This document shows, in pieces, positions 53,805-63,706 of a stretch of 64,000 bases of DNA. Positions within the stretch are counted from its first letter, which is position 1. Each line of letters opens with the position of its first letter. The position numbers were made by a program, and so were the translations under genes. Below the pieces are notes generated by a model that saw only the letters and a list, made by a program, of their open reading frames with translations, was not told the origin of the DNA and made no database searches. This DNA is from Gammaproteobacteria bacterium (lineage in GTDB: Bacteria; Pseudomonadota; Gammaproteobacteria; Pseudomonadales; Ketobacteraceae): positions 186,001 to 250,000 of the forward strand of contig JABLXQ010000001.1 of NCBI GenBank assembly GCA_013178375.1, in the 5' to 3' direction.

Positions 53805-54734
53805 CTATACGCAGGCTTCGCGTTTCTGTGCCGCACGGATCGCCTGCGACTGCATCCATTTCAGAATGCGTCCGCCCAAGTGCTGGCCGGTGGCGACTTC
53901 GGCTACCTGAACGGCGTCGCGCAGGGCGTTGATGTCGATGCCGGTGTCGAAGCCGGATTCTTCCAGCATGTAGACCAGATCTTCCGTCGCTACGTTCCCC
54001 GAAGCACCCGGCGCGAACGGGCAACCGCCCAGGCCGCCGATGGAACTGTCGAAACGGCGCACGCCTTCCATCACGCCGGCCCAGGCCATGGCCAGCGCCA
54101 AACCGCGGGTGTCGTGCAGATGCAGGTTGAAACGGTCGGCGCCGAACTGCTGCACCAGCGGCCGCAGGATGTCACTGATCTGTTGCGGATTGCCGGCACC
54201 GATAGTATCGGCGATGGAAATTTCGTGGGCACCGGCCTGGATCATGTCGGCGGTAAGTTTGTGCACCACGTCCACCGGCGTCTTGCCGTCGTAAGGGCAG
54301 GCGATGGCACCGGAAATGTAGGCGCGCACGAACACGCCGTCGGCGCGGGCCTGGGCGATCACCTGCTGGCAGGTCTCGCGGGTCTGTGCCAGGGTCATGT
54401 TCAGGTTGCGCTGGTTGAAGGTGTCGGTGGAAGCCAGCACCACGCCGATGGAGGTGACGCCCTGTTCCCGCGCGCGCTCGTAGCCTTTCATGTTGGGTAC
54501 CAGCGCGGCGATATTCAATTGGTTGAATTCACGCAGGCCGGCCAGTACATCAACGGCGTCTGCCATCTGCGGCACCAGCTTGGGATGGACGAAACTGACG
54601 GCCTCGAACTGGCGCACGCCGGCGGCCACCAGAGCGGCCGCCATCTTGAGTTTGGACTCGGTTGAAACGGGATTGGGCTGGTTTTGCAGGCCGTCGCGCA
54701 GGCCTACTTCGTTGATATAAATGATGTCGCGCAT
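53805..54734 (-). CDS. Hydroxymethylglutaryl-CoA lyase
   Basis: 309 residues from MRDIIYINEVGLRDGLQNQ (54734). Cleaves HMG-CoA to acetyl-CoA and acetoacetate. The HMGL-like TIM barrel shows the metal/substrate motif EVGLRDGLQ, HLHDTRGLALA, and the lyase signature GGLGGCPFAPGASGNVATED with the catalytic Cys. Normal length. Adjacent (213 bases) to a class III CoA-transferase on the same strand. Confidence 0.9.
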   Translation of the reverse strand: MRDIIYINEVGLRDGLQNQPNPVSTESKLKMAAALVAAGVRQFEAVSFVHPKLVPQMADAVDVLAGLREFNQLNIAALVPNMKGYERAREQGVTSIGVVLASTDTFNQRNLNMTLAQTRETCQQVIAQARADGVFVRAYISGAIACPYDGKTPVDVVHKLTADMIQAGAHEISIADTIGAGNPQQISDILRPLVQQFGADRFNLHLHDTRGLALAMAWAGVMEGVRRFDSSIGGLGGCPFAPGASGNVATEDLVYMLEESGFDTGIDINALRDAVQVAEVATGQHLGGRILKWMQSQAIRAAQKREACV

Positions 54735-54947
54735 GGGGTGTCTGGACCGGTGAGTCAAGGAAGATGGGTCCGATTATAAGCGAAAGCGTCTGTGGCGCTA
54801 CCTTACCGGCATTTACAGTGCCGGCAGGTGATTGAAGAAGTTCCGGATTTTGCTCGAAAAGACCGGTGGTGATGGGGGCCACCGGCAGGTTCAAGCAGCA
54901 GATTTGTCTGTTCTGGCGGGATACTGGGGCAACAATTCGGGAAGCGG

Positions 54948-56147
54948 TTATCCGATGATTCCCGCCTGATGCAGCTGCCTGATCCGCTCCTCCGTCAGTC
55001 CCAGCACTTCCGCCAGCACGGTATTCGTGTTTTCGCCCAGCAATGGCGGCGCTGTGAAATGTTGTTCGTTTGTATCCGACAGTTTCACCGGATTGCCCGG
55101 CTGCGGCACGGTTTTTCCGTTGGGCAGCGGCACATCCACCACCATGTCCCGCGCCTGGATTTGCGGATCGTTCAGTGCAAAGGCGAAATCATTCACCGGT
55201 GCGGCGGGAATGCGGTATTCCTTCAATTGTTCCAGCCAGAATTCGCAGGTGTTTTTTTCCAGATACTCCTGAACTCTAGCGTTGATGGCATGGCGATATT
55301 CCCAGCGCTCGGGCTGCTTTTCAAAGCGTTTTTCCAGTAGAAACGGATCGTTCAGCATCGCTGCCAGCTTGAGATAAAAGGCGTCGCCCATGCAGGCCAG
55401 GATGATGTAGCGCGATTGCGTACGAAAAGTCCCGTAGGGCACATGCACGAAATGGCCGTTGCCCACCGCCGGTGGTTGCACGCCGCTCATCAGGTACATG
55501 GTGGCCATGTAATTCAGCAGCGACACCTGGCAATCCTGCATGGAAATATCCACGTGCTGGCCGCGTCCGGTGAGCGTGCGGGCGTGTAGCGCCGACAGTA
55601 TTCCGATGGTCGCGAACAGGCCGCCACCCAGATCGCCGATGGGAATCCCCGCCCGCAACGGCGGACCGTTTTCCTCGCCAGTGATCGACATGCCGCCGCC
55701 CATGCCCTGCGCCACCAGATCGAACGCGGGGCGGTCCCGCTCCGGCCCGGTTTCACCAAAGCCGGTGATCGAGCAGGTGATGATGCGTGGGTTGTGCTGT
55801 TTCAACCTATCGAAATCAATGCCCAGGCGTTTCGGCACGCCCTCGCCGAAATTGTTGATCACCACGTCGGCTTTTTTCACCAGTTGGTAAAACAGTTCCA
55901 GCCCGGCCTGTTCCTTCAGATTCAGGCACACACTTTCCTTGTTGCGCGACAGGGTGAGGAAATAGGCCCCCATGCCGTCGATGGAATAGCGCGGATCGTC
56001 TGCCAGCAGCTTGCGGGTGCCCTCGCCGGTTTGGGGTGGTTCGATCTTGATGCAGCGGGCGCCCATGTCCGCCAGCAACTGGCTGGCATAGGGGCCGGAC
56101 AGCATGTGGGTCAGGTCCAGAATGGTGAGGTCGTGCAGTGGCGTCAT
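54948..56147 (-). CDS. CaiB/BaiF class III CoA-transferase
   Basis: 399 residues from MTPLHDLTILDLTHML (56147), with GAGG five bases upstream. LSGPYASQLLADMGA and KIEPPQTGEGTR are family blocks. The catalytic Asp is probably the one in ISMQDCQVSLL. With the neighbouring HMG-CoA lyase, the likely job is to activate a branched dicarboxylate such as 3-hydroxy-3-methylglutarate with succinyl-CoA, as in meglutol loci; this is inference. The promoter region holds two GTATAC palindromes. Confidence 0.87.
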   Translation of the reverse strand: MTPLHDLTILDLTHMLSGPYASQLLADMGARCIKIEPPQTGEGTRKLLADDPRYSIDGMGAYFLTLSRNKESVCLNLKEQAGLELFYQLVKKADVVINNFGEGVPKRLGIDFDRLKQHNPRIITCSITGFGETGPERDRPAFDLVAQGMGGGMSITGEENGPPLRAGIPIGDLGGGLFATIGILSALHARTLTGRGQHVDISMQDCQVSLLNYMATMYLMSGVQPPAVGNGHFVHVPYGTFRTQSRYIILACMGDAFYLKLAAMLNDPFLLEKRFEKQPERWEYRHAINARVQEYLEKNTCEFWLEQLKEYRIPAAPVNDFAFALNDPQIQARDMVVDVPLPNGKTVPQPGNPVKLSDTNEQHFTAPPLLGENTNTVLAEVLGLTEERIRQLHQAGIIG

Positions 56148-56166
56148 GGGGGCCTCGGGTTGGCGC

Positions 56167-56180
56167 TTATGTATACATAA
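56167..56180. promoter_or_regulatory. Operator-like palindrome 1 in the divergent promoter
   Basis: TTATGTATACATAA, a perfect 14-bp palindrome 20 bases before the CoA-transferase start and on the other side of the divergent promoter for the VOC gene. TGTATACA cores are typical of GntR (FCD/VanR-type) operators; the regulator is not in this window. Confidence 0.6.
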
Positions 56181-56230
56181 ATGGGTCTGCATCCCCTTCC
56201 TGTGACATACGAAGCCGATGGATGCTTGAA

Positions 56231-56242
56231 ATTGTATACAAT
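56231..56242. promoter_or_regulatory. Operator-like palindrome 2 in the divergent promoter
   Basis: ATTGTATACAAT, a perfect 12-bp palindrome, with the same TGTATACA core as the site 64 bases (centre to centre about 63) to the left. It probably overlaps the promoter of the VOC gene. Confidence 0.6.
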
Positions 56243-56304
56243 CTATGAAAATATCGACCCATCAGTCAACCCAAATCTTGCCTGGCACCGCCGAGGGAAT
56301 CGCC

Positions 56305-56850
56305 ATGACCGAAACCGCCCCATCTGCCGACACCCGCCCCGCTGTCGTATTGAAGCCGGTGCACAACATGCACCACACCGCCTACCGTTGTCGCGATGCC
56401 GAACAGACGCGTTGGTTTTACGAAGATGTGCTGGGTTTCAAGCTGATTGCCGCGCTGGCGTTCGACGAGGAACCGGGTCGCGCCGTGCAGCGGGAATTCA
56501 TGCATCTGTTTTTCGAAACCACTGACGGCAATTGCATCGCATTTTTTGACGCGCCCGACGACGCGGACGAAAGCATGTTCGTCGCCCGCCCCTGCTTCGG
56601 CCCCATCAATCACCACTTCGTGCACTCCATCTACATGTACGATCCCAACGGCCTGCAGGTGGAGCTCACGGTGAAGGATGCGGATTACCAGGGCATCATG
56701 ACCCGGGAAACCGCCAAGGCCCACGCTGACATACAGCAGTGGACCGAGCGCACCCGCGCCATCAAGGAAGCACGCCTGGACAAAAACATGCTCGACCTGC
56801 GCGGCATCGATACCAGCAAGGTCGATCTGAGCGGCCTGAAAAAATCCTGA
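56305..56850 (+). CDS. VOC (glyoxalase/extradiol dioxygenase fold) family protein
   Basis: 181 residues from MTETAPSADTRP (56305), with GAGGGA upstream. Paired beta-alpha-beta-beta-beta modules: HNMHHTAYRCRDAEQTRWFY and FVHSIYMYDPNGLQVELTVK. The His and Glu positions (HHTAY, HFVHS, QVEL) suit a metal centre. Possibly a ring-cleavage or lactoylglutathione-type enzyme; substrate unknown. First of the rightward catabolic genes; 26 bases before the hydrolase. Confidence 0.82.
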   Translation: MTETAPSADTRPAVVLKPVHNMHHTAYRCRDAEQTRWFYEDVLGFKLIAALAFDEEPGRAVQREFMHLFFETTDGNCIAFFDAPDDADESMFVARPCFGPINHHFVHSIYMYDPNGLQVELTVKDADYQGIMTRETAKAHADIQQWTERTRAIKEARLDKNMLDLRGIDTSKVDLSGLKKS

Positions 56851-56876
56851 CACTTTTTTACCGGGGAACTGAATAC

Positions 56877-58052
56877 ATGAACGCAGCCACCAAACACGAA
56901 TACGACCGCATTCCGTACATGATCGTGTTCCAGGAAAAAGCCGGCTTCAAGGACACCTACGCCGGGCGGATGGATTTCGTCGGCCTGGAAGCGCATCTGC
57001 TGAAACCGAAGGAAGTCGACAGCAAAACCGTCATCGTCTTCATGCACCCGATTGGCGGTGGCGCTTATCTGCCGATGGTGTCATCGCTGGCGAAAAAAGG
57101 TTTCCACGTGATTTATTGCAACAGCCGTTATCGCGGTGTGGACAGTGCGCTGGCCATGGAAAAAGTGGCGCTGGATCTGGGCGCCTGTATTCGCGATGCA
57201 AAAGAGCGGCTGGGTTATGAAAAAGTCGTGCTGGCCGGCTGGAGCGGCGGCGGTTCCCTGAGCCTGTTCTATCAAAGCCAGGCCGAACATCCTACCATCA
57301 CGCACACACCGGCCGGAGATCCGGTAAATCTGGTGGAAGCGAAACTGATTCCCGCCGATGCCATGATGCTGCTGGCCGCGCATATTTCCCGTGCCGGCAC
57401 GCTGACCGAATGGCTGGATGCGGCGATCCTGGATGAAACCGATCCCACCAAACGCGATCCCGAGCTGGATATTTACGACAGTAATAATCCCAACCAGCCG
57501 CCCTATTCCGCCGCGTTCGTGGAGAAATACCGCGCCGCGCAGATTGCCCGCAACCGTCGCATCACCAAATGGGTGAAGGACAAACTGGCCGCATTCAAGC
57601 GGGATGGACTGGAGAATGAGGAATTTGCGTTTGTGACACACGGCACCATGGCTGATCCGCGTTTCGTTGATCCGACGCTGGACCCGAACGATCGCAAACC
57701 CAACTGGTGTTTTCTCGGCGATCCGCGTGTGGTGAATAACGGACCGGTGGGCATTGCGCGTTTCAATACTCTGCGCAGCTGGCTGTCGCAGTGGAGTTAT
57801 GACGATTCCAACGCGGATGGCCTGAAGTGCGCGCAGAAAATTTCAGTGCCGACGCTGGTGATCGGCAATTCCGCCGATGACGCCTGCACACCGAGTCACA
57901 CTCATCGCCTGTTCGAATCCGTGGCAGTGAAGGACAAGGAACTGTATGAGGTCAAAGGCGCCAATCACTACTACTTCGGTCAGCCCAAGGAAATGGAAGA
58001 AGCGGTAAGCCAGTGCGCGCAGTGGCTTACCAAAAAAGGTTTCGCGGCTTGA
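56877..58052 (+). CDS. Alpha/beta hydrolase
   Basis: 391 residues from MNAATKHEYDRIPYM (56877), with GGGGA upstream. VIVFMHPIGGGAYLPM is the oxyanion region, VLAGWSGGGSLSLFY the nucleophile elbow (Ser), with a probable acid in LVIGNSADDACTP and His in VKGANHYYFG. Cytoplasmic. A long lid-like insertion lies between residues about 155 and 290. Reaction unknown; ester, lactone or C-C hydrolysis are all possible. Confidence 0.85.
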   Translation: MNAATKHEYDRIPYMIVFQEKAGFKDTYAGRMDFVGLEAHLLKPKEVDSKTVIVFMHPIGGGAYLPMVSSLAKKGFHVIYCNSRYRGVDSALAMEKVALDLGACIRDAKERLGYEKVVLAGWSGGGSLSLFYQSQAEHPTITHTPAGDPVNLVEAKLIPADAMMLLAAHISRAGTLTEWLDAAILDETDPTKRDPELDIYDSNNPNQPPYSAAFVEKYRAAQIARNRRITKWVKDKLAAFKRDGLENEEFAFVTHGTMADPRFVDPTLDPNDRKPNWCFLGDPRVVNNGPVGIARFNTLRSWLSQWSYDDSNADGLKCAQKISVPTLVIGNSADDACTPSHTHRLFESVAVKDKELYEVKGANHYYFGQPKEMEEAVSQCAQWLTKKGFAA

Positions 58053-58133
58053 GTAGAAACTAGATTTGAGGAAGGGCGGGAAAGTTGACCGGATTGGGAA
58101 ACCGGAAGGAAGACTGAAACAGCCGTAAAGTTT

Positions 58134-58173
58134 AGCCCCGATGCATTGCTAACTGTGCCGGGGCTTTTTTTTT
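58134..58173 (+). terminator. Rho-independent terminator after the alpha/beta hydrolase gene
   Basis: AGCCCCG (58134-58140) pairs with CGGGGCT (58159-58165), followed by nine T. It lies 82 bases after the stop and separates the VOC/hydrolase unit from the MDR oxidoreductase gene. The loop is 18 bases. Confidence 0.85.
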
Positions 58174-58270
58174 GCCCGCAGCCGCGTATTTCGGCGGAAT
58201 AAGGCATTGCATACTTCGGCAAATTCATGCGTGAATTGGGCAGGATTTTACTGCGGACAAGGGAACTGGA

Positions 58271-59284
58271 ATGAAACAAAATCTGCGCGTAATAATCGAC
58301 CGGCACGGGCCACCCGACATAATGAAACTGGTGGAAGAAACGCTGCCGGAGCCCGGGCCCGGCCAGGTGCGACTCAGAATTCGTGCAGCAGGGGTAGGCT
58401 ATTCCGATGTGATGGCGCAGCGCGGCGGTTATCCACTGGCGCCGCGTTTGCCCTTTACGCCCGGTTACGACCTGGCTGGTGTGGTGGATAAAGTCGGCGT
58501 TGGTGTTGAGGGTATGGCAGAGGGTCAGACGGTGGCTGCACTGCATCCGGACTTCGGCTGCTATGCGCGTTACCTGTGTGTGCCGGCGTCCATTCTGGTG
58601 CCGTATCCCGCTCATCTGGAAGCAGCTGAAGTGGCGAGCCTGGTGCTCAATTACCTGACGGCGCACTGCATTCTGCACAAAAAGGCGAAGGTCCGGCGCG
58701 GTGATAGTGCGCTGGTGCATTCTGCTGCTGGTGGTGTCGGCACGGCACTGATCCAGCTGGGTGTGCTGGCAGGTTTGACGCTGTATGGCACGGCATCCCG
58801 CGCCAAGACGGATCTGGTGCGGCAACTCGGTGCAATTCCGATTGATTATCAGACCGAGGATTTTGTTGCCGTGTTGCGCGATGCCGTGCCCGGCGGAGTA
58901 GACGCGGCTTTTGATCCCATGGGCGGCGCCAACCTGCGCCGCAGTTATCGTGCGGTGAAGCCGGGCGGCCGCGTCGTCTGCTACGGATTTGCCGGCAATC
59001 ATTTTGGCGGGTTGCTGCCCATGGCCAGCGGCGTGCTGCAAATGACGGCGCTGAATCTGCTTCCCGATGGCAAGCGCGTGAGTTTGTGTGCCACGCCGAC
59101 GGAATGCCGCAAGGATGCGTGCTGGTACAGGGACACGCTGGCGCTGTTGATCGATCTGCTGGCGAAAGACGTTATCAAACCCGTGGTGGGTGCGAGCTTT
59201 CCGTTAGCTGAAGTGAGCAGGGCCCACGCGTTGCTGGAAAGTGGCAAGGCGGTGGGAAAGGTGGTGCTGGTGTGCGCTGAGTAG
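58271..59284 (+). CDS. Zinc-free medium-chain quinone oxidoreductase-like protein
   Basis: 337 residues; GGGA before the start. ESLPEPGPGQV-type N-terminal block (ETLPEPGPGQVRLRI), PFTPGYDLAGVVDKVG, and the NADPH fold SALVHSAAGGVGTALIQLG. No structural zinc loop. Probably reduces an enone or quinone with NADPH. Its own transcription unit, between two promoter-sized gaps. Confidence 0.88.
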   Translation: MKQNLRVIIDRHGPPDIMKLVEETLPEPGPGQVRLRIRAAGVGYSDVMAQRGGYPLAPRLPFTPGYDLAGVVDKVGVGVEGMAEGQTVAALHPDFGCYARYLCVPASILVPYPAHLEAAEVASLVLNYLTAHCILHKKAKVRRGDSALVHSAAGGVGTALIQLGVLAGLTLYGTASRAKTDLVRQLGAIPIDYQTEDFVAVLRDAVPGGVDAAFDPMGGANLRRSYRAVKPGGRVVCYGFAGNHFGGLLPMASGVLQMTALNLLPDGKRVSLCATPTECRKDACWYRDTLALLIDLLAKDVIKPVVGASFPLAEVSRAHALLESGKAVGKVVLVCAE

Positions 59285-59386
59285 CCCACGCCGATATAAC
59301 GACGCCGCCCATCACGCTTTTTCAACAAACCCTTCCTACAAGCATGGTTTTCTTCCGATTCCTGATCCAGCTCAATGAATCAGCAG

Positions 59387-59401
59387 GTATACGCCGTATA
59401 C
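59387..59401. promoter_or_regulatory. GTATAC inverted repeat upstream of the P450 gene
   Basis: GTATAC-GCC-GTATAC, a repeat of the palindromic hexamer with a 3-base spacer, 61 bases before the P450 start. The same hexamer forms the core of both palindromes at 56.2 kb, so it may be a site for the same regulator. Confidence 0.4.
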
Positions 59402-59461
59402 TGACGCAGCAGTCATCCCTTCTATCCAAACGAACTGTCCATAACAAAAAAGGAGTTCCCC

Positions 59462-60949
59462 ATGACGTCGCGTCCCCAACTGCCGCCGCAACCCAACGAC
59501 AGCCAGCTTAAACAGGCCCTGGGCCTGGGTATCGGCATCTGGGATTACATGGAGAAGAACCAGCGCGAACTGGGGGACACCTTCACCCTGAAGCTGCCGG
59601 GCCAGGGGCCCATGGTGTGGACCGCCGAGCAGGACGTGATCCGCGATGTGCTCAAGCTGCGCGAGGACCAGTACGACGCGTCGCTGGTGCAGTTGCCGGT
59701 GGATGTGGGTGAGCAGAACACCGTGTTTCTCAACGAGAAGGAACATCAGGACGCGCGCAAGCTGATCATTCCGTCGTTCACCACCAATCTGCTGAAGAAC
59801 CGCGCCGGGGTGATGCAGGAAATCGTCGAGGCGCATATCGACCGGCTGCAACTGGGCGAGCGCATCAACCTGCCGCGCTTTGTCGGTGACATCACGCTGG
59901 ACATCATCTGCTACACGCTGCTGGGCCTGCGGGAAGGTGCGCGCAAGGAACGCTACAAGGAGCTGATGCTGAACTGGCTGCTGGAAGCCACCAGTGATGT
60001 CAATTTCACATTGGGCGCGACGGTGGGTGCGCGGCGTTATCGCCACTTTTTGAATAAGCAGTATTTGCGGCGCACGGAAAAGGGCCAGATGGGCAATGGC
60101 AGGAAAGGCCTGCTGCCGTGGAAGCGCGCGGTGGATCTGAAAGTGCAGCTGGCGGCGCTGCTGCGGGAAGACATCCGTGGCATCCGCGCGCGCAATGCGG
60201 CCGATCCAGCGGGTTGCGCCAATGAAAGTCACGTGCTGTCGCTGCTGGCCCGCGCCACCGATGCGGATGGTCAGCCGCTGGGCGAGGAACGGCTGATTTC
60301 CGAAAGCATCGGCCTGCTGATTGCGGGCCACGAAACCAGTGCCGCCACCGCTGCCTGGTTCATGGTGTGGCTGCAACAGAAACCGGCGGTGTACCGCAAG
60401 ATCCGCGAGGAAGTGGTGGCGTCGATTGAACACGAAGGCGAACTCAACGCGGTTAAAATTGCGGAGCTACCCTACCTCACCGCCTGCCTGAACGAATCGC
60501 AACGGCTGACACCTTCCGCCATCGGTTTTATCCGCTGGCTGCGGCAGGACACACAGCTGGGCCACCTGTTTTTGCCGGCGGGCACGGCTGTGCTACCGAA
60601 TATTTACCTCACCCAGCGCGACAAAAAAATCTACGGCCCCGATGCGCTGGAATACCGCCCGGAGCGCTGGCTGGAGGACGGCAAAAAATTCGGCCCATCG
60701 GAGTTTCTGCCGTTTGGTGGTGGCCGGCGTGCCTGCGTGGGCATGAACCAGGGCCGTCAGCAACTGCGCATCATTTTTGCGGAACTGGCGCGGCGGGTGG
60801 AATTTTCCTCGGAATTTCAGAGTACGAACAAACTGCCACGCTCGCGCATGATTGGTGGTCAGACGGAGCCGGAAAAAGGCGTCTGGCTCACGGTGCAGGA
60901 AGTGCGGCCGGCGCAGTATGGTTTTGCAGTGCTGGCGAAGACGGCGTGA
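59462..60949 (+). CDS. Cytochrome P450
   Basis: 495 residues, no membrane anchor. I-helix oxygen-binding motif AGHETSAATAAW, ExxR in NESQRL, PERW meander, and heme loop FLPFGGGRRACVGM with the Cys ligand. Soluble bacterial monooxygenase, longer than typical ~410-residue class I enzymes and closer in style to fatty-acid or terpenoid-type P450s. No ferredoxin or reductase gene is adjacent. 48 bases before the Rieske oxygenase, likely co-transcribed. Confidence 0.93.
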   Translation: MTSRPQLPPQPNDSQLKQALGLGIGIWDYMEKNQRELGDTFTLKLPGQGPMVWTAEQDVIRDVLKLREDQYDASLVQLPVDVGEQNTVFLNEKEHQDARKLIIPSFTTNLLKNRAGVMQEIVEAHIDRLQLGERINLPRFVGDITLDIICYTLLGLREGARKERYKELMLNWLLEATSDVNFTLGATVGARRYRHFLNKQYLRRTEKGQMGNGRKGLLPWKRAVDLKVQLAALLREDIRGIRARNAADPAGCANESHVLSLLARATDADGQPLGEERLISESIGLLIAGHETSAATAAWFMVWLQQKPAVYRKIREEVVASIEHEGELNAVKIAELPYLTACLNESQRLTPSAIGFIRWLRQDTQLGHLFLPAGTAVLPNIYLTQRDKKIYGPDALEYRPERWLEDGKKFGPSEFLPFGGGRRACVGMNQGRQQLRIIFAELARRVEFSSEFQSTNKLPRSRMIGGQTEPEKGVWLTVQEVRPAQYGFAVLAKTA

Positions 60950-60996
60950 TTTTTAGTGGCACATTCTCCCGACAATAAAAAAACGAGACCACCTTC

Positions 60997-62064
60997 ATGA
61001 ATGCACCTGCCAACAACAAACTCGACACACCGGTCTACATCATCAAGTCTGAAAAAGTGGAAGAACGCTACGCCCGTGGCTGGCACTGCCTGGGCCTGGC
61101 GAAGGACTACACCGAAAAACCGGTGCGCCTGGATTATTTCGGCACCCGCCTGGTGGCGTTTCGCGGCCTTGAAGATGGCGTCGTGCATATCCTCGACGCC
61201 TTCTGCCCCCACATGGGCGCCGACCTGTCGCGCGGCTGCGTGAAAGGCGATTCCATCGTCTGCCCTTTCCACGGCTGGACCTGGGGCGGCGACGGCTTCT
61301 GCAACGACATCCCCTACGCCAAACGCATTCCACCGAAAGCGCGCATGAAATCCTGGCCCACCACCGAGCAGAACGGACTGCTGTTCGTGTGGAATGATCC
61401 GGAAGGCAATCCGCCCATTCCCGAACAGCATCCCCAGCGCAAAGAGGACTACTACTCCGGTGAATGGAGCGACTGGAGCATGGCCAAACTCACCATCCAT
61501 TCCAACTGCCGCGAACTGGTGGACAACATGGCGGACATGGCCCATTTCGGCCCGGTGCACTATTCCACCGTGAAAAGTTTCCGCAACATCCAGGACGGCC
61601 ACTGCTTCACCCAGCACATGAGCGGCGGCCATGAAATCCTCACCGAGGAAGGCCAGATTTTTACTTCGGTGGCCACCTACGAAGGCCCCGCTTACATGAC
61701 CACCACCATGACCGGCATGCTGCACGGCCAGGAAGTGGTGACGCATCTGCTGGTGACCCACGTACCGGTGAACACCGAGCAGTTCGACATCCGTTTCGGC
61801 GTGATGATGAAGAAAATCCCCGGCCTGTCGGAAGCCGACAACGCCGCCGCCGTGGCCCAGTACACCCAGATGTGCATGGATTCCTTCATCCAGGACGTGG
61901 ACATCTGGAACAACAAGATCCGCGTCGACAACCCGCTGCTGTGCGACGGCGACGGCCCGCTGCACCTGCTGCGCAAATGGTACAGCCAGTTCTATATGGA
62001 CCTGGCCAGCATCCCCGACAGCCTGAAAGTCCATAAGGAACATGTGACCTTGCCGCGCAGCTGA
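60997..62064 (+). CDS. Rieske [2Fe-2S] oxygenase, KshA-like
   Basis: 355 residues. The Rieske cluster is bound by C-P-H (AFCPHMGADLSRGCVKGD) and C-x2-H (CPFHGWTWGGDG). The mononuclear iron triad lies in DNMADMAHFGPVHYSTVK (Asp, His, His). IPYAKRIPPKARMKSWPT and GLLFVWNDPEGNPPIPEQH match the oxygenase component of 3-ketosteroid 9-alpha-hydroxylase. Needs a reductase not found here. Steroid or a related polycyclic substrate is an inference. Confidence 0.88.
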   Translation: MNAPANNKLDTPVYIIKSEKVEERYARGWHCLGLAKDYTEKPVRLDYFGTRLVAFRGLEDGVVHILDAFCPHMGADLSRGCVKGDSIVCPFHGWTWGGDGFCNDIPYAKRIPPKARMKSWPTTEQNGLLFVWNDPEGNPPIPEQHPQRKEDYYSGEWSDWSMAKLTIHSNCRELVDNMADMAHFGPVHYSTVKSFRNIQDGHCFTQHMSGGHEILTEEGQIFTSVATYEGPAYMTTTMTGMLHGQEVVTHLLVTHVPVNTEQFDIRFGVMMKKIPGLSEADNAAAVAQYTQMCMDSFIQDVDIWNNKIRVDNPLLCDGDGPLHLLRKWYSQFYMDLASIPDSLKVHKEHVTLPRS

Positions 62065-62213
62065 TGGGCCCTGTTGGCATGGCCATCTAATCAATTTGGA
62101 TGATGTGGGGCCGGTTTGAAGGGGGCTATGATCCTTTGCAACCCGTTTTCCTGGGCACAGCCGCAATCACATTCACAATCAAGGCAAAACAAAAAACACG
62201 AGGGGAACCAACC

Positions 62214-62843
62214 ATGTGGGTAGGACGCATACTGCCGGAACGGCACATTGACATGAAAGACTTCAACCAGCGCGCCATTTCCGACACCGCGCGGGAAGTG
62301 CTGAAAACCATCAAGGAACCCCAGCGCCGGGCGATCCTGGAGAACTTCATCGAGCACGCGGAATCCGAGTGCACCGGCGATTACGACCGCCTGATCGCCA
62401 GCTGCTCGTCCAAGAGCCAGACTTACGCGGTGTACGGCGCGTCGGAAGCCATTGCCGAAATGCAGCCGAAATCCGTCGAGGAAATGAAGGATTTCTACCG
62501 CGTGTTGGTGGAAAGCAACGTCTACATGATTCACGGTGAAATCGAAAAACTGATCGTGGGCGATCACGACCTGTATGTGGAAATCATTCTGCACCAGCTG
62601 TATCCGGGTGAAGTGCTGCCGATGGCGTTCGGTGTGGAATTCGGCGAGGAAGGCGAGGTATGGCAGCTGACCCAGCGCGTGGCCACCGTGTTCTGCTTCG
62701 ACGATGAAAACAAGGGTTGCGCCGAGCATTCCTGGACCGACGGCCCCACCAAGCCCGAGTGGCTGCGCAAGGAAGATCCGCGCTCGGTGCCGGCGCAGTT
62801 CTGGAACAATCCGGTGACTGGTCCGCGTAAAAAACCATTCTGA
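62214..62843 (+). CDS. SnoaL-like / nuclear transport factor 2 family protein
   Basis: 209 residues from MWVGRILPERHIDMKDF (62214), GAGGGGA upstream. Cone-shaped NTF2-like fold suggested by EPQRRAILENFIEHAESECT, SVEEMKDFYRVLVESNVYMI and WQLTQRVATVFCFDDE. Members act as isomerases, hydrolases or binding proteins in aromatic and steroid pathways. Follows the Rieske gene by 149 bases. Confidence 0.75.
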   Translation: MWVGRILPERHIDMKDFNQRAISDTAREVLKTIKEPQRRAILENFIEHAESECTGDYDRLIASCSSKSQTYAVYGASEAIAEMQPKSVEEMKDFYRVLVESNVYMIHGEIEKLIVGDHDLYVEIILHQLYPGEVLPMAFGVEFGEEGEVWQLTQRVATVFCFDDENKGCAEHSWTDGPTKPEWLRKEDPRSVPAQFWNNPVTGPRKKPF

Positions 62844-62867
62844 TCCCGCCGTTTCCATTGTTTCCAG

Positions 62868-62898
62868 CACCCGCCATCGTTCCGGTGGCGGGTGTTTT
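62868..62898 (+). terminator. Rho-independent terminator after the SnoaL-like gene
   Basis: CACCCGCCA (62868-62876) pairs with TGGCGGGTG (62886-62894), 9-base loop, followed by TTTT. It lies 25 bases after the stop and ends the P450-Rieske-SnoaL unit. The remaining gap to 63085 shows no gene. Confidence 0.85.
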
Positions 62899-63085
62899 CC
62901 TGCTTTCCTGAAAAAGCTTTTTTAATTTCTGTCTCCGTCCGCGTTCTATCCGCCACACCTGTGTCGGGTTTGACCATGGCGATGCCGTTTCCAAATCCAG
63001 ACAATACAATATGAAAATTTTGTGTCACCGGGTTGATTGGGTTTGATTCCGGCGTATTGCTGTTTTTGATCAATGGGAGAAGGGT

Positions 63086-63706
63086 ATGAAAAAGGCTTTT
63101 CGCTTGGCGGCCACGCTGGCGCCTTTGCTGCTGGCGTCCTGCCAGTCCGATCCGCCGCCTGCCGCCACTGCGCCGGCGCCGGGCAGTGGCACAATCACCT
63201 CGGCACCGATCCAGGTGGACGAAAAAAGCTTCAAGTGCGTTCGCGACATGACACCGGTGCGCGGCTTCTTCGTCGACAACATTGCCGGCAATCTGGATGG
63301 CACGTTGGCCGTCGCAAAATCCACAACCGGTGGCGTTTATCCACCCGGCTCGGTGGTGCAGCTGTTTCCCAACGAAGTCATGGTGAAGCGCGAAAACGGA
63401 TTCAATCCCATCACCAAAGACTGGGAATTTTTCGAACTGGATGTGGATGAAAACGGCAGCACCATTCGCAAGCGCGGATTTCAGGATGTGAACAACCGTT
63501 TCGGCGGCAACTGTTTTGCCTGTCACGTGCAGGCGAAGCCGGAGTGGGACATGATCTGCGAAGACAGCCACGGTTGCGAGGCACTGCCCATCTCCCGCCA
63601 CACCATCAATTCCCTGCAGAACACCGATCCGCGCTGTGAGGACATCGACATTCCGTTCTCGCAACGGGTCAGCGCCTGGTTCATCAAGGCATTCACGTCG
63701 TTCTGA
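63086..63706 (+). CDS. Lipoprotein with a c-type heme motif
   Basis: 206 residues. Lipoprotein signal MKKAFRLAATLAPLLLASC with lipobox LASC; a short Ala/Pro linker follows. A single CxxCH occurs in GGNCFACHVQAKPEWDMICE, with two more Cys soon after (ICEDSHGC). This looks like a cytochrome P460-type or other monoheme domain (FVDNIAGNLDGTLAVAKSTT, GGVYPPGSVVQLFPNEVMVK). Likely a periplasmic electron carrier or sensor; role unknown. Starts after GGGAGAAGGG. Confidence 0.78.
   Translation: MKKAFRLAATLAPLLLASCQSDPPPAATAPAPGSGTITSAPIQVDEKSFKCVRDMTPVRGFFVDNIAGNLDGTLAVAKSTTGGVYPPGSVVQLFPNEVMVKRENGFNPITKDWEFFELDVDENGSTIRKRGFQDVNNRFGGNCFACHVQAKPEWDMICEDSHGCEALPISRHTINSLQNTDPRCEDIDIPFSQRVSAWFIKAFTSF

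Follow-up and report, generated by a model that had tools for sequence, protein, structure and literature searches.

The window analysed here, a stretch of 64,000 nucleotides from a gammaproteobacterial genome (GCA_013178375.1; 95 contigs, 6.32 Mb), contains adjacent plus-strand genes for a cytochrome P450 (59462..60949) and a KshA-type Rieske oxygenase (60997..62064), followed on the same strand by the gene for a SnoaL/NTF2-fold protein (62214..62843). The P450 and KshA genes probably form an operon, of which the SnoaL-like gene is a probable third member, and we consider it quite probable that this unit oxidises steroids, as a second such operon within an aerobic sterol/steroid regulon of the HdN1 family. 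An initial annotation had placed these genes, together with those for a VOC protein, a hydrolase, an enone reductase and a heme lipoprotein, in a single, putatively new catabolic cluster. All seven open reading frames are present, and a family search confirms the domain labels P450, KshA_C plus Rieske, zinc-type MDR dehydrogenase, alpha/beta hydrolase and glyoxalase/VOC. The combination of the KshA-like oxygenase, the P450 and the SnoaL-fold protein is borne out as a conserved oxidative unit, whereas the single cluster dissolves into two separately conserved units and two genes for which no linkage was seen. Gene names outside the family search, including many of those of neighbouring genes in the relatives and on contig C67 of the same genome (open reading frames only), were read from the protein starts and are to be taken as presumptive.

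A comparison of the Rieske protein with known families and structures reveals a close relationship with KshA. The KshA_C family (PF19298) is matched at an E-value of 2.5e-69 (234 bits against a cut-off of 23.3), and the Rieske family (PF00355) is matched over its cut-off. Three KshA sequences head the list of PDB relatives, with E-values from 1.3e-102 to 1.8e-90, and the next match stands at 4.3e-15. The Rieske [2Fe-2S] ligands are kept (CPH 70-72 and CPFH 89-92), as are the iron ligands His183, His188 and Asp300 and the bridging Asp180 in an alignment with 4qdc and 2zyl. These four residues align with His181, His186, Asp304 and Asp178 of M. tuberculosis KshA, whose roles in the iron site are given in passages of PMC4064121. 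The similarity to the KshA proteins of Rhodococcus (4QDC/4QDF) and Mycobacterium (2ZYL) thus covers both domains, the ligands and the bridging Asp, in a nearly full-length alignment; in contrast to the actinobacterial enzymes, the window copy belongs to a gammaproteobacterial clade, and its gene adjoins a P450 gene rather than HsaA/HsaC and has no reductase nearby. No FAD_binding_6 reductase is found in the window stretch studied; the genome contains six FAD_binding_6 matches, two of which (L150 and L153) carry a C-terminal 2Fe-2S motif by eye. By its motifs, PDB relatives and position in the tree, the Rieske protein is KshA, with a predicted 9-alpha-hydroxylase function.

Searches with KshA gave matches at 1e-20 in 26 of 57 genomes and at 1e-130 in 36 of 390 genomes of the order. 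In a tree built from 43 rows (20 earlier loci and 23 new ones, 6 of 41 matches being without a locus; an earlier tree had taken 24 of 60 matches), the window copy falls in a clade of 19 with support of 98/97. HsaA and/or HsaC lie within approximately 1.5 kb of KshA in 17 of these 19 members, and the other two, those of the window and of its genus-mate G001, have a P450 gene beside KshA instead. The genome also encodes a second KshA on contig C64, which is 59% identical to the window copy, belongs to another clade and lies approximately 3 kb from KstD. In a plasmid collection, KshA relatives are at most 53% identical among the matches listed.

The P450 (PF00067, E 7.6e-60) has the haem Cys loop (Cys425), the ExxR motif (ESQR 345-348) and the I-helix motif (AGHETS 288-293), and is 71% identical to a paralogue in the side-chain region of contig C67. 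Its group, delimited at E <=1e-215, is found in 13 of the 390 genomes of the order, all 13 of which are in the HdN1 family. The best 60 of its 259 PDB matches are CYP102 (BM3), at E 3e-29 to 1e-27, and a PDB profile search with the P450 alignment returned nothing at 1e-40; relatives in the plasmid collection are at most 29.8% identical, and all five records are cyanobacterial. With the actinobacterial steroid C26 monooxygenases CYP125 and CYP142 the group shares only the proposed job, the oxidation of the side chain before an Ltp2-type cleavage. By sequence the group appears, as far as tested, to be a different P450: neither of the two is among the best 60 of the 259 matches, and no direct comparison with them was made. 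At C1:268767-271355, approximately 19 kb beyond the window, a gene for an MpaB/rubber-oxygenase-type protein (PF09995) directly precedes another P450 gene, accompanied by a divergent TetR-like gene and by SDR-like genes further on.

The start of the SnoaL-like protein was set at 62214 by alignment with seven relatives. The initial label is upheld by the fold and not by Pfam, in which no family was found for this protein. An AlphaFold model obtained from eight sequences has a predicted local distance difference test (pLDDT) value of 86 and a predicted TM-score (pTM) of 0.84, and its best Foldseek matches are ketosteroid isomerase, limonene epoxide hydrolase and SnoaL-type proteins. VIA-align gives Z-scores of 12.0 to 10.5 in the 50 rows listed, among which are an epoxide hydrolase, bile-acid 7-alpha-dehydratases and ketosteroid isomerases. 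The modelled protein is of the ketosteroid-isomerase/NTF2 fold, which it has in common with ketosteroid isomerase, SnoaL, limonene epoxide hydrolase and bile-acid 7-alpha-dehydratase; it differs from these relatives in its low identity (5-16% among the rows listed), an extra N-terminal part and the lack of a Pfam family. Since fold alone does not prove a reaction, the role may be binding, isomerisation, dehydration or epoxide opening. Ketosteroid isomerase has its catalytic Asp in a VEDPVG-like loop. Such a loop is present in the ketosteroid-isomerase-like proteins of L175 and L043, and none is seen by eye in the rows of the SnoaL-like alignment; in the HdN1 family, the ketosteroid-isomerase-like genes occur apart from the SnoaL-like gene.

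The linkage of these genes is retained in the relatives. KshA of the window clade could be placed in 4 of the 15 genomes of the family, some of which are incomplete, namely the genome studied, G001, G009 and G013, and a P450 of the same group lies in the same gene run as KshA in all four. The order is P450-KshA in the genome studied and in its genus-mate G001, and KshA-HsaA-SnoaL-P450 in G009 and G013. Three of the four KshA-P450 loci contain the SnoaL gene. Among the 30 related P450 genes for which a locus was available (30 of 35 matches; the P450 tree and the palindrome counts given below refer to the same 30, two of which have less than 400 bp upstream), 12 have a SnoaL gene within approximately 1.5 kb. 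The VOC, hydrolase, MDR and lipoprotein genes are found in none of the three KshA-P450 stretches of relatives; two of these stretches are short contigs, and one of the two stops 221 bp after the P450 gene. The initial annotation had named a lack of co-regulation or of joint conservation as grounds for rejecting the cluster; as far as sequence tells, this leaves the P450-KshA-SnoaL grouping standing and counts against the membership of the other four genes.

A palindrome, GTATAC-N3-GTATAC, was found by comparing the promoters of the steroid genes of the genome with the window. An exact match, GTATACGCCGTATAC, is located at 59387..59401 and starts 75 bp before the start codon of the P450 gene, and the related site GTATACACCGTATAC precedes the ferredoxin reductase gene of C67. 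With up to two mismatches, the window contains three matches against 0.21 expected, one of them being the exact match before the P450 gene. Across the 6.3 Mb of the genome, the pattern matches exactly four times and with one mismatch another four times, compared with three sites at up to one mismatch for a control pattern. Two of the eight sites overlap, which leaves seven places. All eight lie approximately 50-125 bp before a start codon, as the starts are called here; they precede the P450 gene of the window, another P450 gene and an SDR gene on C9, the SnoaL-P450 pair and the ferredoxin reductase gene on C67, a lipase-like hydrolase gene on C13 and a TetR gene on C43.

The position of the site recurs in the relatives. 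Of the 30 related P450 genes, 23 have a site with at most one mismatch in the 1 kb before them, and for the control pattern none has; the highest count is 4 of 30 among 1500 random palindromes of like shape, 4 among other permutations of the arm and 2 among other spacers (0-8). The site also precedes the ferredoxin reductase gene in all seven of the side-chain-type stretches checked. In the genome studied and in G001 it stands before the P450 gene that precedes KshA, in HdN1 before an SDR gene that precedes KshA, and in G013 before KshA itself with one mismatch. Within 1.5 kb upstream of KshA, a site with at most one mismatch occurs in 5 of 14 rows of the family and in 0 of 29 outside it. In HdN1 (L175:7644-9829), a ketosteroid-isomerase-like gene is divergent from the SDR-KshA run with the site between them, and in G010 (L043:9238-10898) such a gene is divergent from KshA, again with the site between.

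The palindrome is named a putative operator on the strength of its placement. In mycobacteria and rhodococci, the genes of the KstR regulon are likewise preceded by a short palindrome, which is of another sequence. The TetR gene on C43 (L173:2335-3057) is a doubtful candidate for the regulator: within 400 bp, only 2 of 13 orthologues have the palindrome (one mismatch) in their promoter, both from the genus studied, and the 11 others lack it. AraC-type genes near some of the P450 clusters, read from protein starts, are further candidate regulators.

The remainder of a steroid pathway is encoded on other contigs of the genome, contrary to the initial view that the genes do not belong to the known steroid pathway; a polycyclic substrate, which had also been proposed, is likely, in the form of a steroid. 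KstD is located on C64, and HsaA, HsaB, HsaC and HsaD lie together on C67. The NCBIfam steroid model is the best match for KstD, HsaA, HsaC and HsaD and the third for HsaB, and HsaC and HsaA are 43% and 49% identical, respectively, to those of a relative. Beside these Hsa genes lie beta-oxidation-type genes and a CoA-transferase subunit gene, which we take to be IpdA. Approximately 85 kb away on C67 is the side-chain region, comprising a SnoaL-P450 pair, a RoxA-like protein, a ferredoxin and a ferredoxin reductase, together with ChsH2-like (dehydratase plus DUF35), ChsH1-like, Ltp2-like aldolase, thioesterase-like and SDR-like genes. The RoxA-like protein has a cytochrome c domain (PF21419; L117:9999-12071) and directly follows the SnoaL-P450 pair; a similar protein start is found at the same place in G001.

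Ferredoxin and ferredoxin reductase genes are present in all seven of the side-chain-type stretches, and the ChsH2-like/ChsH1-like/Ltp2-like set in five, that of C67 included. The cassette proteins match 6ok1 and 4wnb in the PDB, and the aldolase of a relative (L123) is closest to Ltp2 (6ok1_A, E 1.6e-150). The YDHF motif, the equivalent of Tyr344 and the C4 zinc finger of DUF35, features that tell Ltp2 from the bile-acid aldolase Sal according to passages of PMC12329534, are found in L123 by alignment and in the copy of the genome studied by motif words. The hydratase/DUF35/aldolase set and its motifs are the same as in ChsH1-ChsH2-Ltp2 of the actinobacterial igr operon and in ORF40-44 of Comamonas testosteroni TA441; the HdN1 family differs from both in that the set follows the P450, ferredoxin and ferredoxin reductase genes in one region. 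Because a set of this kind also removes propionyl when Comamonas degrades cholate, as described in PMC12502768, the Ltp2-type set alone is no proof of sterol use.

These genes suggest the following sequence of steps. The P450 would oxidise the end of the sterol side chain, receiving electrons from a ferredoxin and a ferredoxin reductase of the kind whose genes lie next to the P450 paralogue on C67. The oxidised side chain could then be converted to a CoA thioester and be shortened by beta-oxidation and by the Ltp2-type aldolase of C67. KshA, with a KshB-type reductase encoded elsewhere, would 9-alpha-hydroxylate the 1,4-dien-3-one formed by KstD (C64), which would open ring B, and HsaA-D (C67) would subsequently degrade ring A. 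The SnoaL-fold protein may bind, isomerise or dehydrate a steroid intermediate of its P450. Transcription would be governed via the GTATAC-N3-GTATAC operator, which is also placed before the SnoaL-P450 and ferredoxin reductase genes of C67. A more specific proposal, to which we assign barely less than an even chance, is that the HdN1 family has an aerobic sterol pathway in which the side chain is attacked by P450s of a family distinct from CYP125/CYP142, with an NTF2-fold steroid protein as their dedicated partner, under a sterol-sensing GTATAC-N3-GTATAC regulon; the operon of the window would be the second module of this regulon and would combine a side-chain and a ring oxygenase in one transcription unit.

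A number of observations weigh against a second steroid operon under shared control. The linkage of KshA and P450 represents two lineages, not four, because G009 and G013 are metagenome-assembled genomes from one sample, the other lineage being the genus studied (two genomes); the four KshA-linked P450s group with weak support (74/72). No SnoaL gene was found beside the P450 gene of G001, and the window copy of the SnoaL-like protein is only 38-44% identical to the seven others. KstD and HsaA-D score under the curated cut-offs of the NCBIfam steroid models, and the ChsH/Ltp2 set was not seen in the HdN1 stretch. As for the palindrome, it stands before KshA with two mismatches in G009 and with one in G013, it is absent from the 1.5 kb before the second KshA gene of the genome and from the fetched Hsa stretches of C67, and none was found at the KstD/KshA and Hsa promoters of the genome in the stretches scanned. 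With up to two mismatches, the genome has fewer sites than the control pattern (47 against 72), and with at most one mismatch, 11 of the 15 genomes of the family have, in our judgement, no clear excess over the control; therefore, it is the position of the palindrome and not its number that carries the evidence. Some P450 genes that bear the palindrome have no recognised steroid neighbour (L079-L082 and L086-L090), and the regulon may therefore extend past sterols.

The last point is what would be expected of a general P450 regulon for hydrophobic compounds such as alkanes or isoprenoids, in which KshA was captured beside a P450 promoter, and the palindrome indeed precedes P450 genes of several subclades. 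We regard this explanation as unlikely, since the palindrome is also placed before KshA itself, in some rows of the family and in none outside it, between a ketosteroid-isomerase-like gene and KshA in one genome, before the SDR-KshA run in HdN1, and before the ferredoxin reductase gene in every side-chain-type stretch. A stronger alternative, which falls somewhat short of even probability, retains the steroid and changes its class: the operon would serve steroids with an acid side chain of the bile-acid type or unusual sterols, and KshA and the P450 would not be spare copies but isoenzymes whose specificity has changed. The clade and the 59% identity that separate the window KshA from the copy near KstD are consistent with this, and Rhodococcus KshA isoenzymes are tied to particular steroids in passages of PMC4064121 and PMC6153880. 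The palindrome is, however, common to a cassette of the Ltp2 type and not of the Sal type, which argues for flat sterol rings, an argument that is tempered by the propionyl removal in the cholate pathway (part of PMC12502768). The original concept of one undescribed cluster of seven genes, acting on a polycyclic or terpenoid substrate outside steroid breakdown, has in its favour that the genes stand in a row on one strand. It is very improbable, given that the row comprises two separately conserved units, which bear different palindromes, and two genes without seen linkage, and that the Rieske protein is tied to steroid genes by its PDB relatives, its clade and the steroid genes elsewhere in the genome.

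The second conserved unit includes the genes for the single-domain VOC protein (56305..56850, +) and the alpha/beta hydrolase (56877..58052, +). Orthologues of the hydrolase were found at 65-94% identity in 10 other genomes of 57 searched, and a VOC gene lies near the hydrolase gene in all 11 genomes, the window copy included. Genes for a CaiB-type CoA-transferase (54951..56147, -; PF02515, presumed ATG start) and an HMG-CoA-lyase-like protein (53805..54758, -; PRK05692, 340 bits against a cut-off of 246, start uncertain) are divergent from the VOC-hydrolase pair in the window. Read by eye, this arrangement is seen in four of seven stretches, the other three having CaiB alone, another arrangement and an unclear one, respectively. 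The palindrome ATTGTATACAAT, at 56231..56242 in the CaiB/VOC divergent promoter and outside the operon, is present in five of the six CaiB/VOC intergenic regions examined (that of the window and those of four of five relatives) and is likely a second, putative operator. The gap between the CaiB and VOC genes (56148-56304) contains two TGTATACA-centred palindromes.

The initial annotation had suggested that the VOC protein and the hydrolase could be a ring-cleavage and hydrolysis pair, a reading that is not supported in view of their separate unit and of the VOC protein itself. The protein has 181 residues and one domain, in contrast to the two domains and approximately 300 residues of an HsaC-type extradiol dioxygenase, and the HsaC model is not among its matches at E 0.01. 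It also lacks, in frame, a central segment of approximately 29 residues that is kept in the seven relatives compared, and the loss includes a conserved His, presumably a metal ligand of the VOC fold. The gap may be a real deletion or an assembly error. Both an HsaC-type function of the VOC protein and a meta-cleavage pair with the hydrolase were rejected on these grounds.

Two further genes of the row are bystanders as far as tested. For the PIG3-like MDR dehydrogenase (58271..59284, +), the enone reductase of the initial annotation, no relative above 70 bits was found in the fetched loci besides its own locus, and no genome search was made with it. The lipoprotein with a CXXCH motif (63086..63706, +) had been labelled as a heme lipoprotein; a lipobox and the haem motif CFACH are seen by eye, whereas the match to cytochrome P460 is under the Pfam cut-off (21.7 bits against 27). 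No relative of it was seen in the fetched loci, and no genome search was made with it.

The kinds of enzymes discussed here are already known, whereas searches of the open-access literature turned up no paper that describes this P450 group, its SnoaL partner or the palindrome. Passages of a 2016 survey report no evidence for the 9,10-seco breakdown of cholesterol in Proteobacteria, with CYP125/CYP142 lacking (PMC4810484), and cholesterol-growing Gammaproteobacteria were isolated in a 2018 study that, in the part concerned, defers their genomic analysis (PMC5790920). Opinion on sterol breakdown in Proteobacteria is not uniform, because a 2024 paper counts Comamonas, in the relevant section, among the models of aerobic sterol breakdown (PMC11061730). 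The present analysis corrects the reading of four neighbouring genes as parts of a new pathway. The locus of the window and its paralogous cluster provide candidate genes and a DNA site, which make the question of cholesterol breakdown in Proteobacteria directly testable.

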